Of a stretch of DNA of 61,912 bases, positions 10,619 to 24,368 are shown piece after piece. This stretch comes from Methanosarcinaceae archaeon. Its GTDB lineage: Archaea; Halobacteriota; Methanosarcinia; Methanosarcinales; Methanosarcinaceae. Within the stretch, counting starts at the first letter, position 1, and each line of letters begins with the position of its first letter. Position numbers and translations under genes: made by a program. Where the stretch lies: positions 1 through 61,912 of the forward strand of contig JAMJFS010000010.1 of NCBI GenBank assembly GCA_023544565.1, given 5' to 3'. The notes under the pieces are model-generated. The model was not told the DNA's origin, did not search any database, and saw only the letters and a list, made by a program, of their open reading frames with translations.

Positions 10619-11911
10619 TCATGCTTTTTTGAGTGTAATCCAGAATACAGACCCTTGTCCATTTGGATTATTCTCTACACCAACATGACCCCCGTGTAGA
10701 TCAATTATTCTCTTAACAATTGCAAGCCCAAGCCCCATTCCTTTGATCCCGCGTCTATCTGTGCGTTTAAATCGTTCGAACAGGTGTGGCTTATCTTCAT
10801 CCGGGATTCCGATTCCAAAATCTGTTACTGTTATTATCCAATCTGTGTTATTATTTGATATGTCGATAATTATCCGACTTTTATCTTTGTCCCCTCCATA
10901 TTTGATGGCATTAGACAAAAGATTTACAAAAACCTCTTTGACCAGTGGATTCACATTTACAAAACAATCGAGTTTTGGTGTAAATTCAATTGTGATCTGT
11001 TCATTATCAAGTTCAGATTCAAAATCACTCATCGCATCTTTAATAATGTCGCACAGATCAATCTTCTGGAATTTGATATCATCAACAGATTCAAGTTTTG
11101 CAAGATGACTTACTGTTTCAACAAGTTTAATAATTACTTCAGTGTTGCGCTCAATTACTTTGAGTGATCTTATAGTCTTTTGGTTTTTTTCAGTACTCAA
11201 TAATACCTCTGTGTATCCTTTGATGATACCTGCGGGATTCAAAAGATCATGATGAAGCACATCTCCAAAAAGATTTTTTAGTTCATTGGAATGTTGCAGT
11301 TCTTTTGTATATTTTTGAAGTTCGGCAGTCCGCTCCTCAACCTTAATCTCAAGTTTATCGTAAGTTTTTTGCAATTCCTTTGTTTTTTGGGTTAATTTAT
11401 CAAGGTATTTGTTGCTTGCAATTGCAATAGATATCATTACTCCGATCGATTCGAGCGAAGATAGTTCATTTTGTGCTATGTCCCTTTCTTTCTCACCATA
11501 AAGAACACATATCCCAAATATCTTGCCATTTTTAAAAAGAGGCACCCAAACCATAATTTCAATTATGCCTGTAATTATCCTCAGATCACTCCATGGTTTC
11601 AACCGTGGGTCTGAATAAGGGTCATGCAGAACAACGATTTTGCCGGTTTTAAATGTTTCTCCTGCCGGACCTGAAAGTATTTTCCCCTTCACTTTGTTTA
11701 CCATTTCAGGATAACTTTCAGGCAAATTATATGAAACGAGCATATGTGCTTCGTCATTTTCATCCATTTCTATAACAGTGCCAAAAAGATAACCAAGGTT
11801 ATTGCAAGTGACCCCCAGTACATTCTTGATGTATTGTTTTGGAGGCAGTTGCACATCAATATCTGTAAGTGCATTATTTAATGATCTAATCCCATTCATT
11901 CGATTGTCCAT
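10619..11911 (-). CDS. soluble GAF-domain sensor histidine kinase
   Basis: The 430-residue protein consists of GAF (about 20-170), coiled coil (170-215), HisKA and HATPase. The phospho-acceptor is probably His221 in LHHDLLNP, the HxxNP variant. Nucleotide-binding boxes are VFVNLLSNAIKYG, DFGIGIP and GMGLGLAIVK, all intact. No membrane segment is present, so sensing is cytoplasmic through the GAF domain. That domain is a close paralogue of the one in the GAF-PAS protein at 7299-9212. No response regulator with a DNA-binding domain is nearby, which is common in methanogen signalling. Function is well supported; the ligand is unknown. Confidence 0.9.
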   Translation of the reverse strand: MDNRMNGIRSLNNALTDIDVQLPPKQYIKNVLGVTCNNLGYLFGTVIEMDENDEAHMLVSYNLPESYPEMVNKVKGKILSGPAGETFKTGKIVVLHDPYSDPRLKPWSDLRIITGIIEIMVWVPLFKNGKIFGICVLYGEKERDIAQNELSSLESIGVMISIAIASNKYLDKLTQKTKELQKTYDKLEIKVEERTAELQKYTKELQHSNELKNLFGDVLHHDLLNPAGIIKGYTEVLLSTEKNQKTIRSLKVIERNTEVIIKLVETVSHLAKLESVDDIKFQKIDLCDIIKDAMSDFESELDNEQITIEFTPKLDCFVNVNPLVKEVFVNLLSNAIKYGGDKDKSRIIIDISNNNTDWIITVTDFGIGIPDEDKPHLFERFKRTDRRGIKGMGLGLAIVKRIIDLHGGHVGVENNPNGQGSVFWITLKKA

Positions 11912-15758: not shown

Positions 15759-17336
15759 ATGACCATGCGAATGACACCGACAACAACGAGCACAACAGGA
15801 CTTGAAGCACTCTATCTTGCAGCTGTTGATAGCAATGTCTCATTTGTCACAGCAGTTGCCGGTTATCCCATCACCGTTGTGATGAATCGATTTTTGGAAA
15901 ATAACAAGGATGGGGTCGTGGGTGCGGACATGGATGCAAATACTACCATTGGTGCGAAATGGATGACAAATGAGAAGGTCGCACTAGAGGGTGCACTGGG
16001 TGCATCGGTATCGGGCAGGCGTGCGCTCGTACTAACCAAACATGTTGGCATGAATGTATTATCAGACCCTCTTGTAACATCTGCGACACATTCTATCGGT
16101 GCAGGCTTGGTAATTTTTGCAGGCGATGACCCCGGAGTAGCTGCGTCCCAGAATGAGCAAGATTCCAGATGGTACGGTGAGATCGCTGAGGTCGCGGTGT
16201 ATGATCCATCAACACCGCAGAACGCATATAGCGCGGTTGTAAGAGCATTTGAACTATCAGAGCAGGTAAGTGCACCTGTGATAGTCAGGATCACACACAG
16301 ACTGGAGATCAGTGAAGGTTTACTTGAAAGAACAAAGAAAGATCAACAAAATACCAAAGTGGTCTTTGATCGTTCGATATGGGCGATCACAATGCGTGGA
16401 AAGCACGAAAAATTACACCTTGAGTCTTACCCCAAACTTGTGAAAGAATCGGAACATTCGCCTCTGAACAGGCTCACAATGGGACTGGAGGGTGAGGTTG
16501 AAGATGGGAATATTGGCATTATCTCATCAGGCTATCCTTCCGCGCTTGTTGCCAATGTTCTGGACACGCGCACCAATGTTTCACATCTTGAACTTGGCAT
16601 GGTGAATCCAATTCCTTTCAATACAGTGCGCGAATTTGTGAAAGCACACAAGCGCGTTCTTATTGTAGAGGAAACCGAACCTTTTATTGAATCCCACTTG
16701 TGCATACTTGATAATGTATTAGGAAAAAAGACAGGACACCTTCCATATGGTCAGGTCGATGTCGAGCATATTGAATATGCACTTGACCACATCAATAACG
16801 ACACGGTGGTCAAGTACATAGACATCCAGACGATTGTCAGCAGGGGAAGCAGGAAAGCGCGCTCGATATGTGATGATTGTCCATATATGCCTTTATATCA
16901 TATCCTGCATGATCTTGACGTGATGATTGCAGGAGATCTCGGTTGTTCGGTACGCAGTGCTCCTGCGCCACTCGAAGCGGTGGACACAGGCTTTGCACTC
17001 GGGTCATCCATAGCGGTTGCGTGCGGGTTCGAGAAAAAAGGAATTGCGGTCATAGGTGATTTTGGTCTGGCGCATTCGGGTATTATTGGACTCATCAATG
17101 CTGTGCACTGCGAGTTTGATGTAGTGGTAATTGTGTTACAGAACAAGGTTGCTGCAATGACAGGCGGACAGGATGTTCCTGACCTGATTGATGTCGTGAA
17201 GGCAGAGGTTGCGGATGTTTCGAGCTTTGATATTGATGCGGGTGTGATTGGAACTCTGCTTGAATTGATAAATGAAAAACTGGATAAGCGTGGGGTTTCT
17301 GTTATTTTTGTTAAGGGTAAGTGCAGGAAGTATTGA
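15759..17336 (+). CDS. IorA-like thiamine-diphosphate oxidoreductase subunit lacking the ferredoxin domain
   Basis: The 525-residue protein aligns with the alpha subunit of indolepyruvate:ferredoxin oxidoreductase. It has a pyrimidine-binding domain at the N-terminus (AVAGYPITVVMNRF, DMDANTTIGAKW), a transketolase C-like segment (IGIISSGYPSALV), a CDDCPYM cysteine pair, and a thiamine-diphosphate domain (GDLGCS, GDFGLAHSGIIGLINAVHCEFDVV, AAMTGGQ in pieces). The C-terminal double 4Fe-4S domain of normal IorA (about 80 residues) is missing, and no iorB is adjacent. Electron transfer would need another protein. ATG codons stand at 15759, 15765 and 15771; a TATA box near 15745 favours leaderless use of 15771. 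The substrate is unknown. Confidence 0.8.
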   Translation: MTMRMTPTTTSTTGLEALYLAAVDSNVSFVTAVAGYPITVVMNRFLENNKDGVVGADMDANTTIGAKWMTNEKVALEGALGASVSGRRALVLTKHVGMNVLSDPLVTSATHSIGAGLVIFAGDDPGVAASQNEQDSRWYGEIAEVAVYDPSTPQNAYSAVVRAFELSEQVSAPVIVRITHRLEISEGLLERTKKDQQNTKVVFDRSIWAITMRGKHEKLHLESYPKLVKESEHSPLNRLTMGLEGEVEDGNIGIISSGYPSALVANVLDTRTNVSHLELGMVNPIPFNTVREFVKAHKRVLIVEETEPFIESHLCILDNVLGKKTGHLPYGQVDVEHIEYALDHINNDTVVKYIDIQTIVSRGSRKARSICDDCPYMPLYHILHDLDVMIAGDLGCSVRSAPAPLEAVDTGFALGSSIAVACGFEKKGIAVIGDFGLAHSGIIGLINAVHCEFDVVVIVLQNKVAAMTGGQDVPDLIDVVKAEVADVSSFDIDAGVIGTLLELINEKLDKRGVSVIFVKGKCRKY

Positions 17337-17757: not shown

Positions 17758-18528
17758 CTACATTAGATACATAATCAAAAAACTAACAAATATCAACATT
17801 AATGAAATGTAGATCCTCAACCACTTAGCGTTTACATTTCTGATAACTTTTGGACCCAACTGTCCACCAATGAGGACTGAAGGTATCACGAATATCATAA
17901 CATCAAACAGTGTAGACCAGTTCTCGATCAGCGCTCCAACAAAAACGGGATTCATTCGGGTCAATGCTGCCACAATATCCACAATGAAAATTATCACTAC
18001 GGTTGAACCTATGACATCAGAAGGATGCTTTATCTTTTCATGATTCCAGATACAGGGTACTATCAATTTACCTAATCCCGTAGCAATTAATCCTTTGAGA
18101 AATCCGGCTGCAAAACCCAGTTCCCAGAATATCCGGCTGTGTTTTTGCGGCTCTTTCTTTGATGAAATAGCTGTGATAAGCAAGTAGGTTCCATAAACAA
18201 ACACAAAAAAGCCGAATATGAGTACAAGTATTTTTCCACCGATGTATGATGTCAGGATCGAACCTATGATCGCACCCGGAATTGTCGCTATCAGGTATTT
18301 TTTGACAATGTACCAGTTGACTGTATGCTGGTAGAGGTTTCTAATCACCCCGCTTCCAAATCCGAATACCATTGTCAGAAGTGCCAGCCAGAAACTGATA
18401 AGTGGGTCAAGTTTGAGTATGAAAAGGTAGACCGGTATCCAGAAGTTCGCACCTGAAATTCCGGCAGACATTGCCACTGCCGATATGATGATGCCAAGCG
18501 GGAAAAGGTACCAGTATGTGAGATCCAT
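17758..18528 (-). CDS. TauE/SafE (TSUP) family transporter
   Basis: The 256-residue protein has about eight membrane helices and the two-half organisation of the TSUP family. The first half contains AMSAGISGANFWIPV and FGFGSGVIRN; the second contains AAGFLKGLIATGLGKLIVP and GGQLGPKVI. Family members move sulfite, sulfoacetate, taurine-derived anions or other sulfur compounds across the membrane. No neighbouring sulfur gene defines the substrate. It is convergent with the IorA-like gene. The start at 18528 (MDLTYWYLFPLG) leads straight into the first helix. Confidence 0.85.
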   Translation of the reverse strand: MDLTYWYLFPLGIIISAVAMSAGISGANFWIPVYLFILKLDPLISFWLALLTMVFGFGSGVIRNLYQHTVNWYIVKKYLIATIPGAIIGSILTSYIGGKILVLIFGFFVFVYGTYLLITAISSKKEPQKHSRIFWELGFAAGFLKGLIATGLGKLIVPCIWNHEKIKHPSDVIGSTVVIIFIVDIVAALTRMNPVFVGALIENWSTLFDVMIFVIPSVLIGGQLGPKVIRNVNAKWLRIYISLMLIFVSFLIMYLM

Positions 18529-18633
18529 GGTCTTTTAAGAGAAGGTTTGGATATATAGTGGTTTTTATTTTGGGTCGTGTCATTTTGGCACTATTCCAAA
18601 ATACAGTTATTCCAGTTTAAATGGAATAAATTT

Positions 18634-18747
18634 TCACCACAGAGAACACTCATCTCATAGGAGTAGAGTGCCTGCTACGCCCACAAGGCATGTAGGTTAC
18701 CGAGAGCATAAAGTTGTTAATAAGTTTACAACTGCTCCTTGTGGTGA
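18634..18747. ncRNA. candidate structured RNA or small mobile remnant
   Basis: About 114 nt are bounded by TCACCAC (18634-18640) and its complement GTGGTGA (18741-18747). Inside lie hairpins CACTC/GAGTG (18647-18670, with an inner CTC/GAG and an ATAG tetraloop), GCCT/AGGC (18670-18689) and AGTTGT/ACAACT (18712-18733). Together they could form a multibranched RNA. Its 5' part also resembles the CACCGCAGAG sequence near 61570. Strand, transcription and identity are unknown. Confidence 0.35.
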
Positions 18748-18756
18748 TTTTTCATA

Positions 18757-18815
18757 GTATATTTTTTATAAACATATAGTTCGAGTCAATCTGAGCGTCA
18801 GCGAAGATTTTCTCG
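18757..18815 (+). repeat. dispersed repeat A, copy 4
   Basis: This is a well-conserved copy: GTATATTTTTTATAAACATA, then CGAGTCAATCTGAGCG, then GAAGATTTTCTCG. It lies directly behind the structured segment at 18634-18747 and just beyond the 3' end of the iron-sulfur flavoprotein gene. Confidence 0.8.
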
Positions 18816-18863: not shown

Positions 18864-19571
18864 TCACACGGATTGCAGCTTTTCCCTGATCAGCTTTCCA
18901 ATTCTTTCGGCTTCAGCCATCACATCAGGTTCGTCCTTTACAGACCTGTATTCCTTCAGGATCTTTGCAGAACCGTGTTCATATGGTTTGTTGTCTGGCA
19001 ACAGTTCAAGGTATCCTTCATAAGCCGCTTCAATCCCAAGGTCCATTCCGGTCATTTCTTTGGAGTATGCATTCCAGACTGGATAATGACAGCTCTCACC
19101 TACTCCACATACAAAACAGCAGGGCGTTCCTTTTGCTGTCATGCTACCAACAATTTCCATGCCGCCTGCGCGAAGTGCATTCCCCATCCATTCAGAAACC
19201 ATGGACTCAGCCGCAATGCCTAATGCCACTGTTGCAACCAGCTTGCCACCTGCCTGAAGTTTTACATGTCTCTTAGAATAAAGCCGTTCAATGAACGCTT
19301 TTGTAAAAGCACTTGCTGCACCGTAGTATGTCGGTGAGCCAATCACAATTGCATCGGCATCCATCACTTTTTTGGAAAGCCATTTGAAATCGTCATTTAG
19401 AACGCATTCATTGGTGTAGACGCATTTCATGCATGCGATGCAAGGTCCTACTTCAATATCCGAAAGTTTGACAAATTCGTTATCTGCACCTGTGGCATCA
19501 ACTATCGCTTTTATCAATGTATCTGTATTACTGTCCTCTGTTGGACTCCCGCTTATTCCTATTACTTTCAT
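18864..19571 (-). CDS. iron-sulfur flavoprotein (Isf-type)
   Basis: The product of about 235 residues has the flavodoxin-like fold of NADPH-dependent FMN reductases (MKVIGISGSP, then IVIGSPTYYGAAS). A compact cluster motif C44-x2-C47-x2-C50-x5-C56 is diagnostic of methanogen Isf. Isf binds FMN and 4Fe-4S and takes part in reduction of oxygen or peroxide with ferredoxin electrons. ATG 19571 follows GGGGT at a good distance; an open frame reaches 19706 but would overlap the AhpD-like gene. It is last in a four-gene redox operon running from 20597. Confidence 0.9.
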   Translation of the reverse strand: MKVIGISGSPTEDSNTDTLIKAIVDATGADNEFVKLSDIEVGPCIACMKCVYTNECVLNDDFKWLSKKVMDADAIVIGSPTYYGAASAFTKAFIERLYSKRHVKLQAGGKLVATVALGIAAESMVSEWMGNALRAGGMEIVGSMTAKGTPCCFVCGVGESCHYPVWNAYSKEMTGMDLGIEAAYEGYLELLPDNKPYEHGSAKILKEYRSVKDEPDVMAEAERIGKLIREKLQSV

Positions 19572-19641
19572 TTCATAAACCCCTTTTAAATATCTGAATT
19601 TGTGGTATAAATAACGTATGGAACATAATTTCTTATCTATG

Positions 19642-20172
19642 TTATAGTGGTACAGCAAGAGAATCAAGGAATTTATTGTAGCCGGTGAACAGCTCCATGA
19701 CCCCAAGCATTTCTACAATTTGGCTATCTGAAAGACCACGAGATTTCAGCTCATCGGTTTCATTGTCAGTGATCTTATGCGGGGTGAGTGTTGCTTTTCT
19801 GGCATATTCAAGGATTGTTTTATCTCTGGGTGTTATCTCAGAACTCTCAATGTTTTTTGTTAGATCATCGATTCGTTCCTGGCTAAATCCCATCATCTGA
19901 AGTGCCATCGAGTGTGCAGCCACGCAATAATTACAGACATTTGCTGCGGATACCACCACTGCAATACTTTCTTTGAGTTCCCGTGAGAGTTCGCCACCCA
20001 TAAGCAATACCTTGGTCTTATCCCAGTTCACCTGCAACAATGCAGGAAAATTGGCATATGTTTTGAAAAGGTTTGGAATCATTCCAAAAACTGTTTCTAT
20101 ATCTGCATAGATTGCCTTAACCTCATCACTTGCATCTTCTTTTTCGATCAGTTTTATTCTCGTTATAGTCAT
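19642..20172 (-). CDS. AhpD-like/carboxymuconolactone decarboxylase-family protein
   Basis: The 176-residue helical protein carries the AhpD-type active site C80-x2-C83 in NVCNYCVAAHSMAL, with His87 three residues later. Family members are thiol peroxidase or disulfide-relay proteins that deal with peroxides. The gene sits 24 bp after the MTH865 gene and 70 bp before Isf, in one minus-strand redox unit. Its presence supports oxidative-stress defence for the operon. The specific electron donor is unknown. Confidence 0.85.
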   Translation of the reverse strand: MTITRIKLIEKEDASDEVKAIYADIETVFGMIPNLFKTYANFPALLQVNWDKTKVLLMGGELSRELKESIAVVVSAANVCNYCVAAHSMALQMMGFSQERIDDLTKNIESSEITPRDKTILEYARKATLTPHKITDNETDELKSRGLSDSQIVEMLGVMELFTGYNKFLDSLAVPL

Positions 20173-20196
20173 ATTTATTCACCTAAAAAAAAGGGC

Positions 20197-20436
20197 TTAG
20201 AGCCCTGCTCTTTCAACAATCACATCAGCTACCTGTTTTGCATTCTTGAATGGGAAATCGCTTGCTTTTAGCAACTTTCCTGCATCTCCTGCACTAACTA
20301 CAAGGTCACCTGATTTGCAGGTGGTGGCTGCACCATCAGGGAACGCTGCAAAGAGTTCTTCAGGTGTGTTTACCGGAAAAGTTCCGTTTGCAAGTCCTCC
20401 AACGATCTGGCTGTGTATTTCATCTTTGACACTCAT
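20197..20436 (-). CDS. MTH865 family protein
   Basis: The protein of about 79 residues matches the small methanogen MTH865 family (an EF-hand-like helical fold solved from Methanothermobacter). Markers are the opening VKDEIHSQIVGGLANGTFPV, PEELFAAFPDGAATTCKSGD, and the C-terminal ADVIVERAGL. ATG 20436 follows a perfect GGAGG ribosome site at the end of the preceding gene. The function of the family is not known. It stands second in the redox operon and contains one Cys (TTCKSGD). Confidence 0.85.
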   Translation of the reverse strand: MSVKDEIHSQIVGGLANGTFPVNTPEELFAAFPDGAATTCKSGDLVVSAGDAGKLLKASDFPFKNAKQVADVIVERAGL

Positions 20437-20438
20437 AT

Positions 20439-20597
20439 TTATTCCTCCATTAATGCATTTATTTCGCCTGCTGTTTTGGCGATTGAACAATCACTGCTAT
20501 GTGTTTCGCATTTGAAACATGCGCTTTTTACGGCATCCAAAGACTCTTTTGCTTCTTCGTTTGTTATGCTTTTGTTTGTACATTTCCATAAAGGCAT
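20439..20597 (-). CDS. 52-residue four-cysteine protein heading the redox operon
   Basis: ATG 20597 is preceded by GAGGTG five bases upstream, an excellent ribosome site. The product is 52 residues, with Cys6, Cys27, Cys30 and Cys37; the second half reads SACFKCETHSSDC. This spacing suggests a small zinc or iron-sulfur knuckle. The stop lies two bases before the MTH865 start and overlaps that gene's Shine-Dalgarno, so translation is likely coupled. I do not recognise the family. The context (MTH865, AhpD-like, Isf) points to a redox or electron-carrier role, by inference. Confidence 0.75.
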   Translation of the reverse strand: MPLWKCTNKSITNEEAKESLDAVKSACFKCETHSSDCSIAKTAGEINALMEE

Positions 20598-20683
20598 TTT
20601 AGCACCTCAGACTCTAATTGTTTGGTCATGAATATATACTTGAGCGTTACTAATATATACTAAATACAGTTTTGTGCATAAAA

Positions 20684-20700
20684 ATGACTCTAGCAGTCAT
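20684..20700. promoter_or_regulatory. dyad operator in divergent redox promoter
   Basis: ATGACT (20684-20689), CTAGC, AGTCAT (20695-20700) form a perfect 6-5-6 inverted repeat between the redox operon (start 20597) and the divergent regulator (start 20742). Two TATA-like AATATATACT boxes at 20626 and 20652 serve the minus strand. The position suits binding by the adjacent winged-helix regulator. Confidence 0.5.
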
Positions 20701-20741
20701 GACAGAAATACTTTTATTTGTGCAGAATATAATACAGTATA

Positions 20742-21491
20742 ATGAACAAAAAAGAACAATCCATCCCCGATAATCTGACAATAAAAACTAAACTCGATGA
20801 GGTTCATGAAGACTTGAAGCGATTCATGGAACAATCAAGCCAGCAGCATCTCGAATCAGTTTTGGCAGGTTCGCGAAGGGATTTTTTGAATTCCATCATA
20901 GAACATGTTGTAGATGATATCGATGAAGGGCTTGACAATAATATGGTGAAAGAATGCCAGATGCAAAAAACGTGTAAATTAAATTTCACTAAATTCTTGA
21001 GGGAAAATTCAAATCTTCTGAAACATGATGGTGTTGCAGAAGATACTATTTTGGGAAAACAGTCTGAATTGGATGAAATGAGAAAAAATGCGCCTTATGA
21101 TCAATGTGGGAAATGTTTCCAGGAAGTTTCGAATCTCTCGGACAAACAAGTAAAATTGATGCGCTCGCTAAGGATCTATAATACGGGTAATGACCAGAAA
21201 AAGGATATTGTGGTACTTCCTGAGGATTCTATAGTCACCGATATTCTTGAGCCGTTATCCAACAGGCAGAGACTCCAGATTCTAAAAGCAGTGGCTATTG
21301 AGACAAAGACTTTTTCAGCGCTTTCAAAACTCACAGGACTTCGGGGGGGTAATTTGCTCTTCCATTTGCAAAAGTTGCTTGATACCGACATGATCCTGCA
21401 GCGTCACGAGCGTGGGGATTATATGATCACAGATAAGGGATTTAAGGTCTTAAAAGGTATCAGTGACGTGCATTCGATGTTGATGTCATAG
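20742..21491 (+). CDS. winged-helix regulator with cysteine pairs, possible redox sensor
   Basis: The protein has 249 residues. Its C-terminal part (about 170-245; LSNRQRLQILKAV, FSALSKLTGLRGGNLLFHL, GDYMITDKG) is an ArsR/MarR-like winged helix. The N-terminal part is helical and contains Cys72-x5-Cys78 and Cys122-x2-Cys125, which could bind metal or form disulfides. It is divergent from the redox operon, with a dyad in the shared promoter. The layout recalls the methanogen redox regulator MsvR, but I see no V4R domain, so it is a different family. Redox control is inferred from cysteines and context. Confidence 0.7.
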   Translation: MNKKEQSIPDNLTIKTKLDEVHEDLKRFMEQSSQQHLESVLAGSRRDFLNSIIEHVVDDIDEGLDNNMVKECQMQKTCKLNFTKFLRENSNLLKHDGVAEDTILGKQSELDEMRKNAPYDQCGKCFQEVSNLSDKQVKLMRSLRIYNTGNDQKKDIVVLPEDSIVTDILEPLSNRQRLQILKAVAIETKTFSALSKLTGLRGGNLLFHLQKLLDTDMILQRHERGDYMITDKGFKVLKGISDVHSMLMS

Positions 21492-23744: not shown

Positions 23745-23795
23745 AGTTAGTGTAAGTAGGTGTCTAATGGGCGCTTTAAATTTAAGGTGAACTAC

Positions 23796-24368
23796 ATGCA
23801 AGATATCGTAGAAATAATCAAATCAAGGCGTTGTGTGCGCCAATATCAGAAAGATGCTGTGTCAGATGAAGATATCGAATTTTTAATTAATTGTGGCATA
23901 CACGCCCCTTCCGGATTCAATGCACAACCATGGAAGTTCCTGGTTATCAAAGACAAGAAAATACAGGACAAAATATCTGAACATGGAAAAAGATCCCTCA
24001 TTCCCATGATCGAGCCAATGAAAGATACATCTCAAAAGATCGCAAATTTTTTGACATTTCTAAAAGCAGAAGAAACAAGTATTTTCTATGGCGCACCTGT
24101 TCTCATAATAATTCTTGGAAATGAGAACGTTATGACAGTTGATTATGATTGTGCAATGGCAGCACAGACAATGATGCTGGCAGCAAATTCCAAAGGCATC
24201 GGAAGTTGTTGGATTGGCGCTGCCACTACTGCACTTATGGACAAAGTAATCTTGAAAGAGTTAGGTGTTCCGGAAGGCTACAAAGCAATTGCACCATTGA
24301 TCTTTGGATACCCGGATGCTGAAACTGAAGTTCCTGAAAAAAATAAAACTGATATTATTTGGAAATAA
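23796..24368 (+). CDS. nitroreductase family protein
   Basis: The 190-residue product has the FMN-binding nitroreductase fold: IIKSRRCVRQYQ at the N-terminus (phosphate-binding Arg residues), HAPSGFNAQPWKFLVI, AAQTMMLAANSKGIGSCWIG and a C-terminal PLIFGYP. ATG 23796 follows AAGGTGA. These enzymes use NAD(P)H to reduce nitro groups, flavins or other acceptors. It completes a plus-strand cluster with the small HTH and TfoX-like genes, though 50 bp separates it from the latter. The physiological substrate is unknown. Confidence 0.9.
   Translation: MQDIVEIIKSRRCVRQYQKDAVSDEDIEFLINCGIHAPSGFNAQPWKFLVIKDKKIQDKISEHGKRSLIPMIEPMKDTSQKIANFLTFLKAEETSIFYGAPVLIIILGNENVMTVDYDCAMAAQTMMLAANSKGIGSCWIGAATTALMDKVILKELGVPEGYKAIAPLIFGYPDAETEVPEKNKTDIIWK

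Follow-up and report, generated by a model that had tools for sequence, protein, structure and literature searches.

The window, the whole stretch of 61,912 nucleotides that was analysed, lies in a 1.8-Mb archaeal genome. It contains a regulator gene, REG, which diverges from an operon headed by the gene for a small protein, SMALL (Table 1). A first-pass annotation of this DNA had described a 52-residue reading frame in front of MTH865, AhpD-like and Isf genes, and all of them were found where it had placed them. The ribosome site of SMALL is also where it was described (GAGGTG just ahead of the ATG), and the divergent winged-helix protein does contain one Cx5C pair (C72, C78) and one CxxC pair (C122, C125). 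The next gene in line, for a TauE/SafE transporter, lies 335 bp downstream of the Isf gene. In several relatives TauE comes close behind Isf (linked in L023, L026 and L152). Between them, at 18631-18780, is a MITE-like stretch (TTTTCACCACAGAG ... CTCCTTGTGGTGATTTTT) with an imperfect terminal inverted repeat, the start of which has a match with three mismatches at 11490; the operon may have been divided at this point by it. Further out, 15759-17336 encodes a TPP enzyme resembling IorA, with a score under the family cut-off, and 23760-24368 a nitroreductase-like protein, neither of which showed linkage to the unit among the relatives examined.

Table 1. Genes and promoter features of the REG-SMALL locus (positions in the window).
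Feature	Position	Strand	Remarks
REG, 249-aa winged-helix regulator	20742..21491	+	N-terminal four-Cys region, C-terminal winged helix
SMALL, 52-aa protein	20439..20597	-	conserved CxxCx6C; operon head
MTH865-family protein, 79 aa	20197..20436	-	PF07747; near-invariant C40
AhpD-like (CMD) peroxidase-related protein, 176 aa	19642..20172	-	PF02627, TIGR01926; CxxC and downstream His
Isf-like iron-sulphur flavoprotein	18864..19571	-	PF03358 (FMN_red); CX2CX2CX5C and second Cys group
TauE/SafE transporter	17758..18528	-	PF01925; unit membership tentative
Element A, 6-5-6 dyad ATGACTCTAGCAGTCAT	20684..20700	.	just upstream of presumed REG BRE/TATA
Element B GTATATATTAGTAACGCTCAAGTATATATTC	20630..20660, core 20635-20650	-	overlaps presumed BRE/TATA of SMALL
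Presumed BRE/TATA of REG AGAAATACTTTTATTT	20704..20719	+	presumed from its place and from AGAAACCTTTTTA of relatives

The C-terminal domain of REG matches HTH_45 (PF14947) at residues 178-246 with 26.0 bits, just above the cut-off of 25.5. All 60 distinct relatives that were collected retain the four cysteines, down to about 35% sequence identity, and this includes paralogs that face pncB genes. Of the 186 genomes of the order, 106 have relatives of REG, and paralogs are frequent. The structure model of REG is too poor (pLDDT 57) to place the four cysteines or to compare folds; a structure search with it gave no match at E ≤ 0.001, with SqrR and BigR among the non-significant matches. The C-terminal domain bears a weak resemblance to ArsR/SmtB regulators (PF01022, NF033788), scoring below both curated cut-offs (HTH_5, 21.4 versus 22 bits; NF033788, 20.8 versus 55 bits), and the long N-terminal region with its two cysteine pairs is absent from classic ArsR.

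SMALL had been described as a four-cysteine protein. Three of the cysteines, C27, C30 and C37, are conserved and form the CxxCx6C motif, whereas C6 is found only in this species and is Tyr or Phe elsewhere. No Pfam family reached its cut-off on SMALL, and there was no NCBIfam match. Across the order 22 of 186 genomes have a homologue, as do 21 of 295 genomes of a phylum sample; METP1, ANME-2 and Methanocalculus are among them. Given this conservation and a third-codon-position excess relative to most of the homologues, SMALL is a real coding gene. The copy in one congener (G005) is decaying, with a GTG start, a C30Y substitution and no codon bias; the CMD gene is missing there. SMALL is fused to MTH865 in Methanocalculus and other distant genomes; the resulting protein of 133 residues is still divergent from REG and retains both CxxCx6C and C40. 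By the classical gene-fusion argument, the two proteins should work together. In the structure model of the fused protein only the MTH865 half was recognised (1IIO, E = 5.7e-5). Homology of SMALL to a 66-residue cysteine protein, described below, was considered and found no support (hhalign probability, 0.4%). A search of viral contigs revealed neither SMALL nor REG relatives, and a plasmid collection contained none of SMALL.

The second gene of the operon encodes a clear member of the MTH865 family (PF07747, 99.3 bits against a cut-off of 25, E = 9.9e-29, profile positions 1-70 of 70), the structural relative being PDB 1IIO. Its C40 is present in 63 of 64 sequences. What sets it apart here is the 52-residue partner, to which it is fused elsewhere, and the redox gene context. 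A PF07747 match was also obtained in the M. acetivorans control genome. The AhpD-like protein scores 117.9 bits with TIGR01926 (cut-off, 81.8) and is also above the cut-off of PF02627; C80 and C83 are present in 13 of 13 sequences and H87 in 12 of 13, and its structural relatives in the PDB are AhpD-like. It is a member of the peroxidase-related family by sequence, and its activity is predicted. The Isf-like protein matches PF03358 with 81.6 bits (cut-off, 24). We take the Isf family to be defined by an FMN_red domain and a compact CX2CX2CX4-7C motif, which the window protein has as C44-C47-C50-C56. These four residues are present in 36 of 36 close orthologues, as are C152, C155 and C161, a second group in this set that is additional to the compact motif. 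In a reference given in PMC4338226, the Isf family is cited for its reaction with O2 and H2O2. On a Methanoperedens plasmid, MTH865 and its neighbours are the most highly expressed genes (PMC9674854).

The arrangement is widely conserved. REG with a divergent row of SMALL, MTH865, CMD (not always present) and Isf recurs in METP1, in ANME-2 and across many genomes of the order; other families and orders, too, have REG divergent from SMALL. REG and SMALL are commonly separated by about 140-180 bp; then come MTH865, the AhpD-like gene, one or two Isf genes and sometimes TauE. Most SMALL homologues have REG divergent and MTH865 next to them. Among 101 MTH865 genes (order sample, with the distant copies of family f3 left out), 54 are divergent to a REG gene within 1.5 kb and a further eight have a linked one that runs the same way. 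In the tree, the closest partner of the window's REG is a copy from family f2 (100/99 support), apart from the other copies in its own family, and five other genomes of its genus, three of them less than 90% complete, are without REG and SMALL. The unit was likely acquired horizontally.

The shared promoter was said to contain a 6-5-6 dyad, and it does: ATGACT and AGTCAT flank CTAGC, and the motif occurs once in the window. The dyad alone is not significant, as 7.7% of shuffles of the 144-bp spacer contain one. The evidence for it comes from conservation of its position in other genomes. Related genomes have ATRACCTTnAAGGTYRT, compared with ATGACTCTAGCAGTCAT in the window and ATAACTCTTACAGTTAT in a congener, and this element A lies just before the presumed BRE/TATA of REG in genera that share little other spacer sequence. 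It is also retained upstream of SMALL genes from which REG has been lost. The claimed dyad holds as to position, but in most relatives it is not perfectly symmetric, and covariation of the two arms was not significant (335 of 2000 shuffles). We also considered element A as part of a leader peptide (ATGACCTTTAAGGTT..., MTFKVVIET), and rejected this reading, since many genomes have ATA in place of the ATG. At one locus (L077/L146, contig C6 of G087), REG and SMALL are about 5 kb apart and element A is found at both ends.

Element B was searched with the pattern RTRMCGNYYAAGTATA, using the reversed pattern as a control. There were 121 matches versus 26 for the control in the 106 genomes with REG, and nine versus 23 in the 80 genomes without it. 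On genome presence the Fisher p value is 7e-18, a figure that ignores phylogeny and is partly circular because the pattern was derived from REG loci. The less circular part of the evidence is the set of genes preceded by element B elsewhere. Away from the REG-SMALL locus it precedes unlinked genes for MTH865 (one of them in M. acetivorans), Isf, flavodoxin, the 66-residue cysteine protein, DUF1638 and a QueG-like protein. About a dozen off-locus matches that we read looked like chance, several of them from genomes without REG. The genome containing the window has element B once only, at the REG-SMALL locus, so control would be local there. To that extent the description of the unit as self-contained applies to this genome; it does not extend to the relatives, where element B stands at several unlinked promoters.

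Taken together, these comparisons make the unit a probable control system of methane-cycling archaea for redox or oxygen stress, one not described before. Its predicted wiring, with REG acting on the redox operon, is well supported by comparative genomics: gene linkage, the SMALL-MTH865 fusion, the invariant cysteines, the operator-like elements and element B at redox genes elsewhere. The most economical model, in which we infer DNA binding, the sign of control and the signal, is an autoregulated repressor that would act on both promoters until its cysteines are oxidised. REG would be a redox-sensing transcription regulator using thiols, or cysteines that bind Zn or an Fe-S cluster, and from the shared promoter it would control its own gene and the divergent operon. 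Binding to element A, next to the BRE/TATA of REG, and to element B, which overlaps that of the operon, would repress both. Oxidation of the four cysteines by O2, reactive oxygen species (ROS) or a related oxidant would then release REG from the DNA, and the Isf and AhpD-like proteins would remove the oxidant. SMALL and MTH865 may act jointly as a cysteine-containing redox or metal unit, using CxxCx6C and C40. That REG is a cysteine-based redox sensor controlling its own gene and the SMALL-MTH865-AhpD-Isf operon in this manner is, in our judgement, somewhat more probable than not.

An oxygen or peroxide signal, as originally proposed, is plausible from the company that these genes keep. In family f3 MTH865 is present and no REG was found; here all nine loci examined (L149, L153-L160) have flavodoxin and ferritin genes next to MTH865, with two flavodoxins in the cluster. 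Where the contig permits, the cluster also includes PNPOx-type, rubrerythrin, desulfoferrodoxin and rhodanese-rubrerythrin-fusion genes. Some off-locus targets of element B or REG paralogs, DUF1638 and pncB, have no evident redox role.

Among rival signals a reactive sulphur species is the strongest, on account of the TauE linkage. With the same wiring, REG would sense persulphide, polysulphide or sulphite and TauE would export a toxic anion. The position of TauE after Isf and the rhodanese domain in the f3 cluster fit this reading, and some ArsR-type sensors respond to persulphides. Many copies of the unit lack TauE, however, and O2 or ROS is the signal suggested by the genes for AhpD-like protein, Isf, rubrerythrin and desulfoferrodoxin, so we regard a sulphur signal as unlikely. 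We give even less credence to REG as a metal sensor of the ArsR kind, with the four cysteines as ligands of Zn, Cd, As or an Fe-S cluster, and with metal or iron status as what the operon responds to. Four invariant cysteines in two pairs and the ArsR-like C-terminal domain (HTH_5 and HTH_metalloreg, below cut-off) would suit such a sensor, but neither the operon nor the off-locus targets include a metal transporter, chaperone or arsenic gene. Finally, element B overlaps the presumed TATA box and might be nothing but a strong core promoter of highly expressed genes, independent of REG; this is improbable, as the element is rare, is enriched only in genomes with REG, and is accompanied by a conserved GTAYA at -10 to -6, beyond the searched pattern.

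As to how oxidants are sensed and survived by methanogens, which are strict anaerobes, and by ANME archaea, the regulator described best is MsvR. Known from Methanothermobacter and Methanosarcina, it is, like REG, a methanogen DNA-binding protein with conserved cysteines; it is autoregulated, as is predicted for REG, and in Methanothermobacter it is divergent from an oxidative-stress operon, much as REG is from its redox operon (PMC3729527). MsvR of M. acetivorans did not bind the predicted oxidative-stress operon tested (PMC3729527). In MsvR the HTH is N-terminal, a V4R domain with three conserved cysteines forms the C-terminal part, and the operator is a TTCGN7-9CGAA box (PMC3729527), whereas REG has its four-cysteine region at the N-terminus, its winged helix at the C-terminus and a different predicted operator. 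The Pfam matches of REG up to E 0.1 include no V4R, and 20401-20900 contains no TTCGN7-9CGAA. MsvR membership was rejected on these grounds, and REG is a distinct regulator, as the first-pass annotation had it. A TrmB-family thiol regulator of Haloferax resembles REG in being an archaeal winged-helix, cysteine-based oxidative-stress regulator, but it is a single winged-helix domain (PMC9426492); REG is 249 residues long with a separate four-cysteine region, and no TrmB match exceeded the cut-off. SMALL may be compared with MtrI of Methanosarcina mazei, another unannotated small cysteine protein of Methanosarcinales, which has been linked to oxygen exposure (PMC12774963). MtrI has 68 residues with an N-terminal four-cysteine zinc ribbon, is encoded by a stand-alone gene and is bound to Mtr (PMC12774963). 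By this description SMALL is set apart, having 52 residues with three conserved cysteines in the C-terminal half.

In the literature searched, which includes few subscription papers, a single paper names MTH865 and none describes the REG regulator, its operator or the unit. Beside MsvR, the locus offers another regulator defined by sequence, whose predicted operators and targets can be studied in Methanosarcina, a genus amenable to genetics. It also adds a new family of small proteins and gives the MTH865 family, whose structure is solved, its first functional lead. A wider proposal is a redox regulon spread through the phylum, run by a four-cysteine winged-helix family with its own operator and with SMALL and MTH865 as core effector, their four conserved cysteines (three plus one) forming a shared metal or redox site. 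We put this forward tentatively, considering it possible rather than probable; such a site, if real, would be the first function for PF07747.

Other REG paralogs face MTH865 alone, a 39-residue CxxC protein in Methanosarcina, or the 66-residue cysteine protein. The 39-residue protein (CxxC...CxxC, MVKCGICGGEAPKQPCITEEGNCNLCGKKVVLAEEKEKK) faces its REG paralog at L059 in G158, a same-family genome that we take to be Methanosarcina acetivorans C2A, and has no Pfam match. In G158 the REG ortholog occupies 869955-870662, and an MTH865 promoter lies at about 2732591. The 66-residue protein, also without a Pfam match, has a conserved CxCx3Cx3C motif and is found behind element B at L179, L182, L184 and L227, often near a REG paralog. 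At L071, L073 and L074, the gene divergent from the REG paralog was judged by eye to encode nicotinate phosphoribosyltransferase (pncB), a hint that members of the REG family control NAD salvage.
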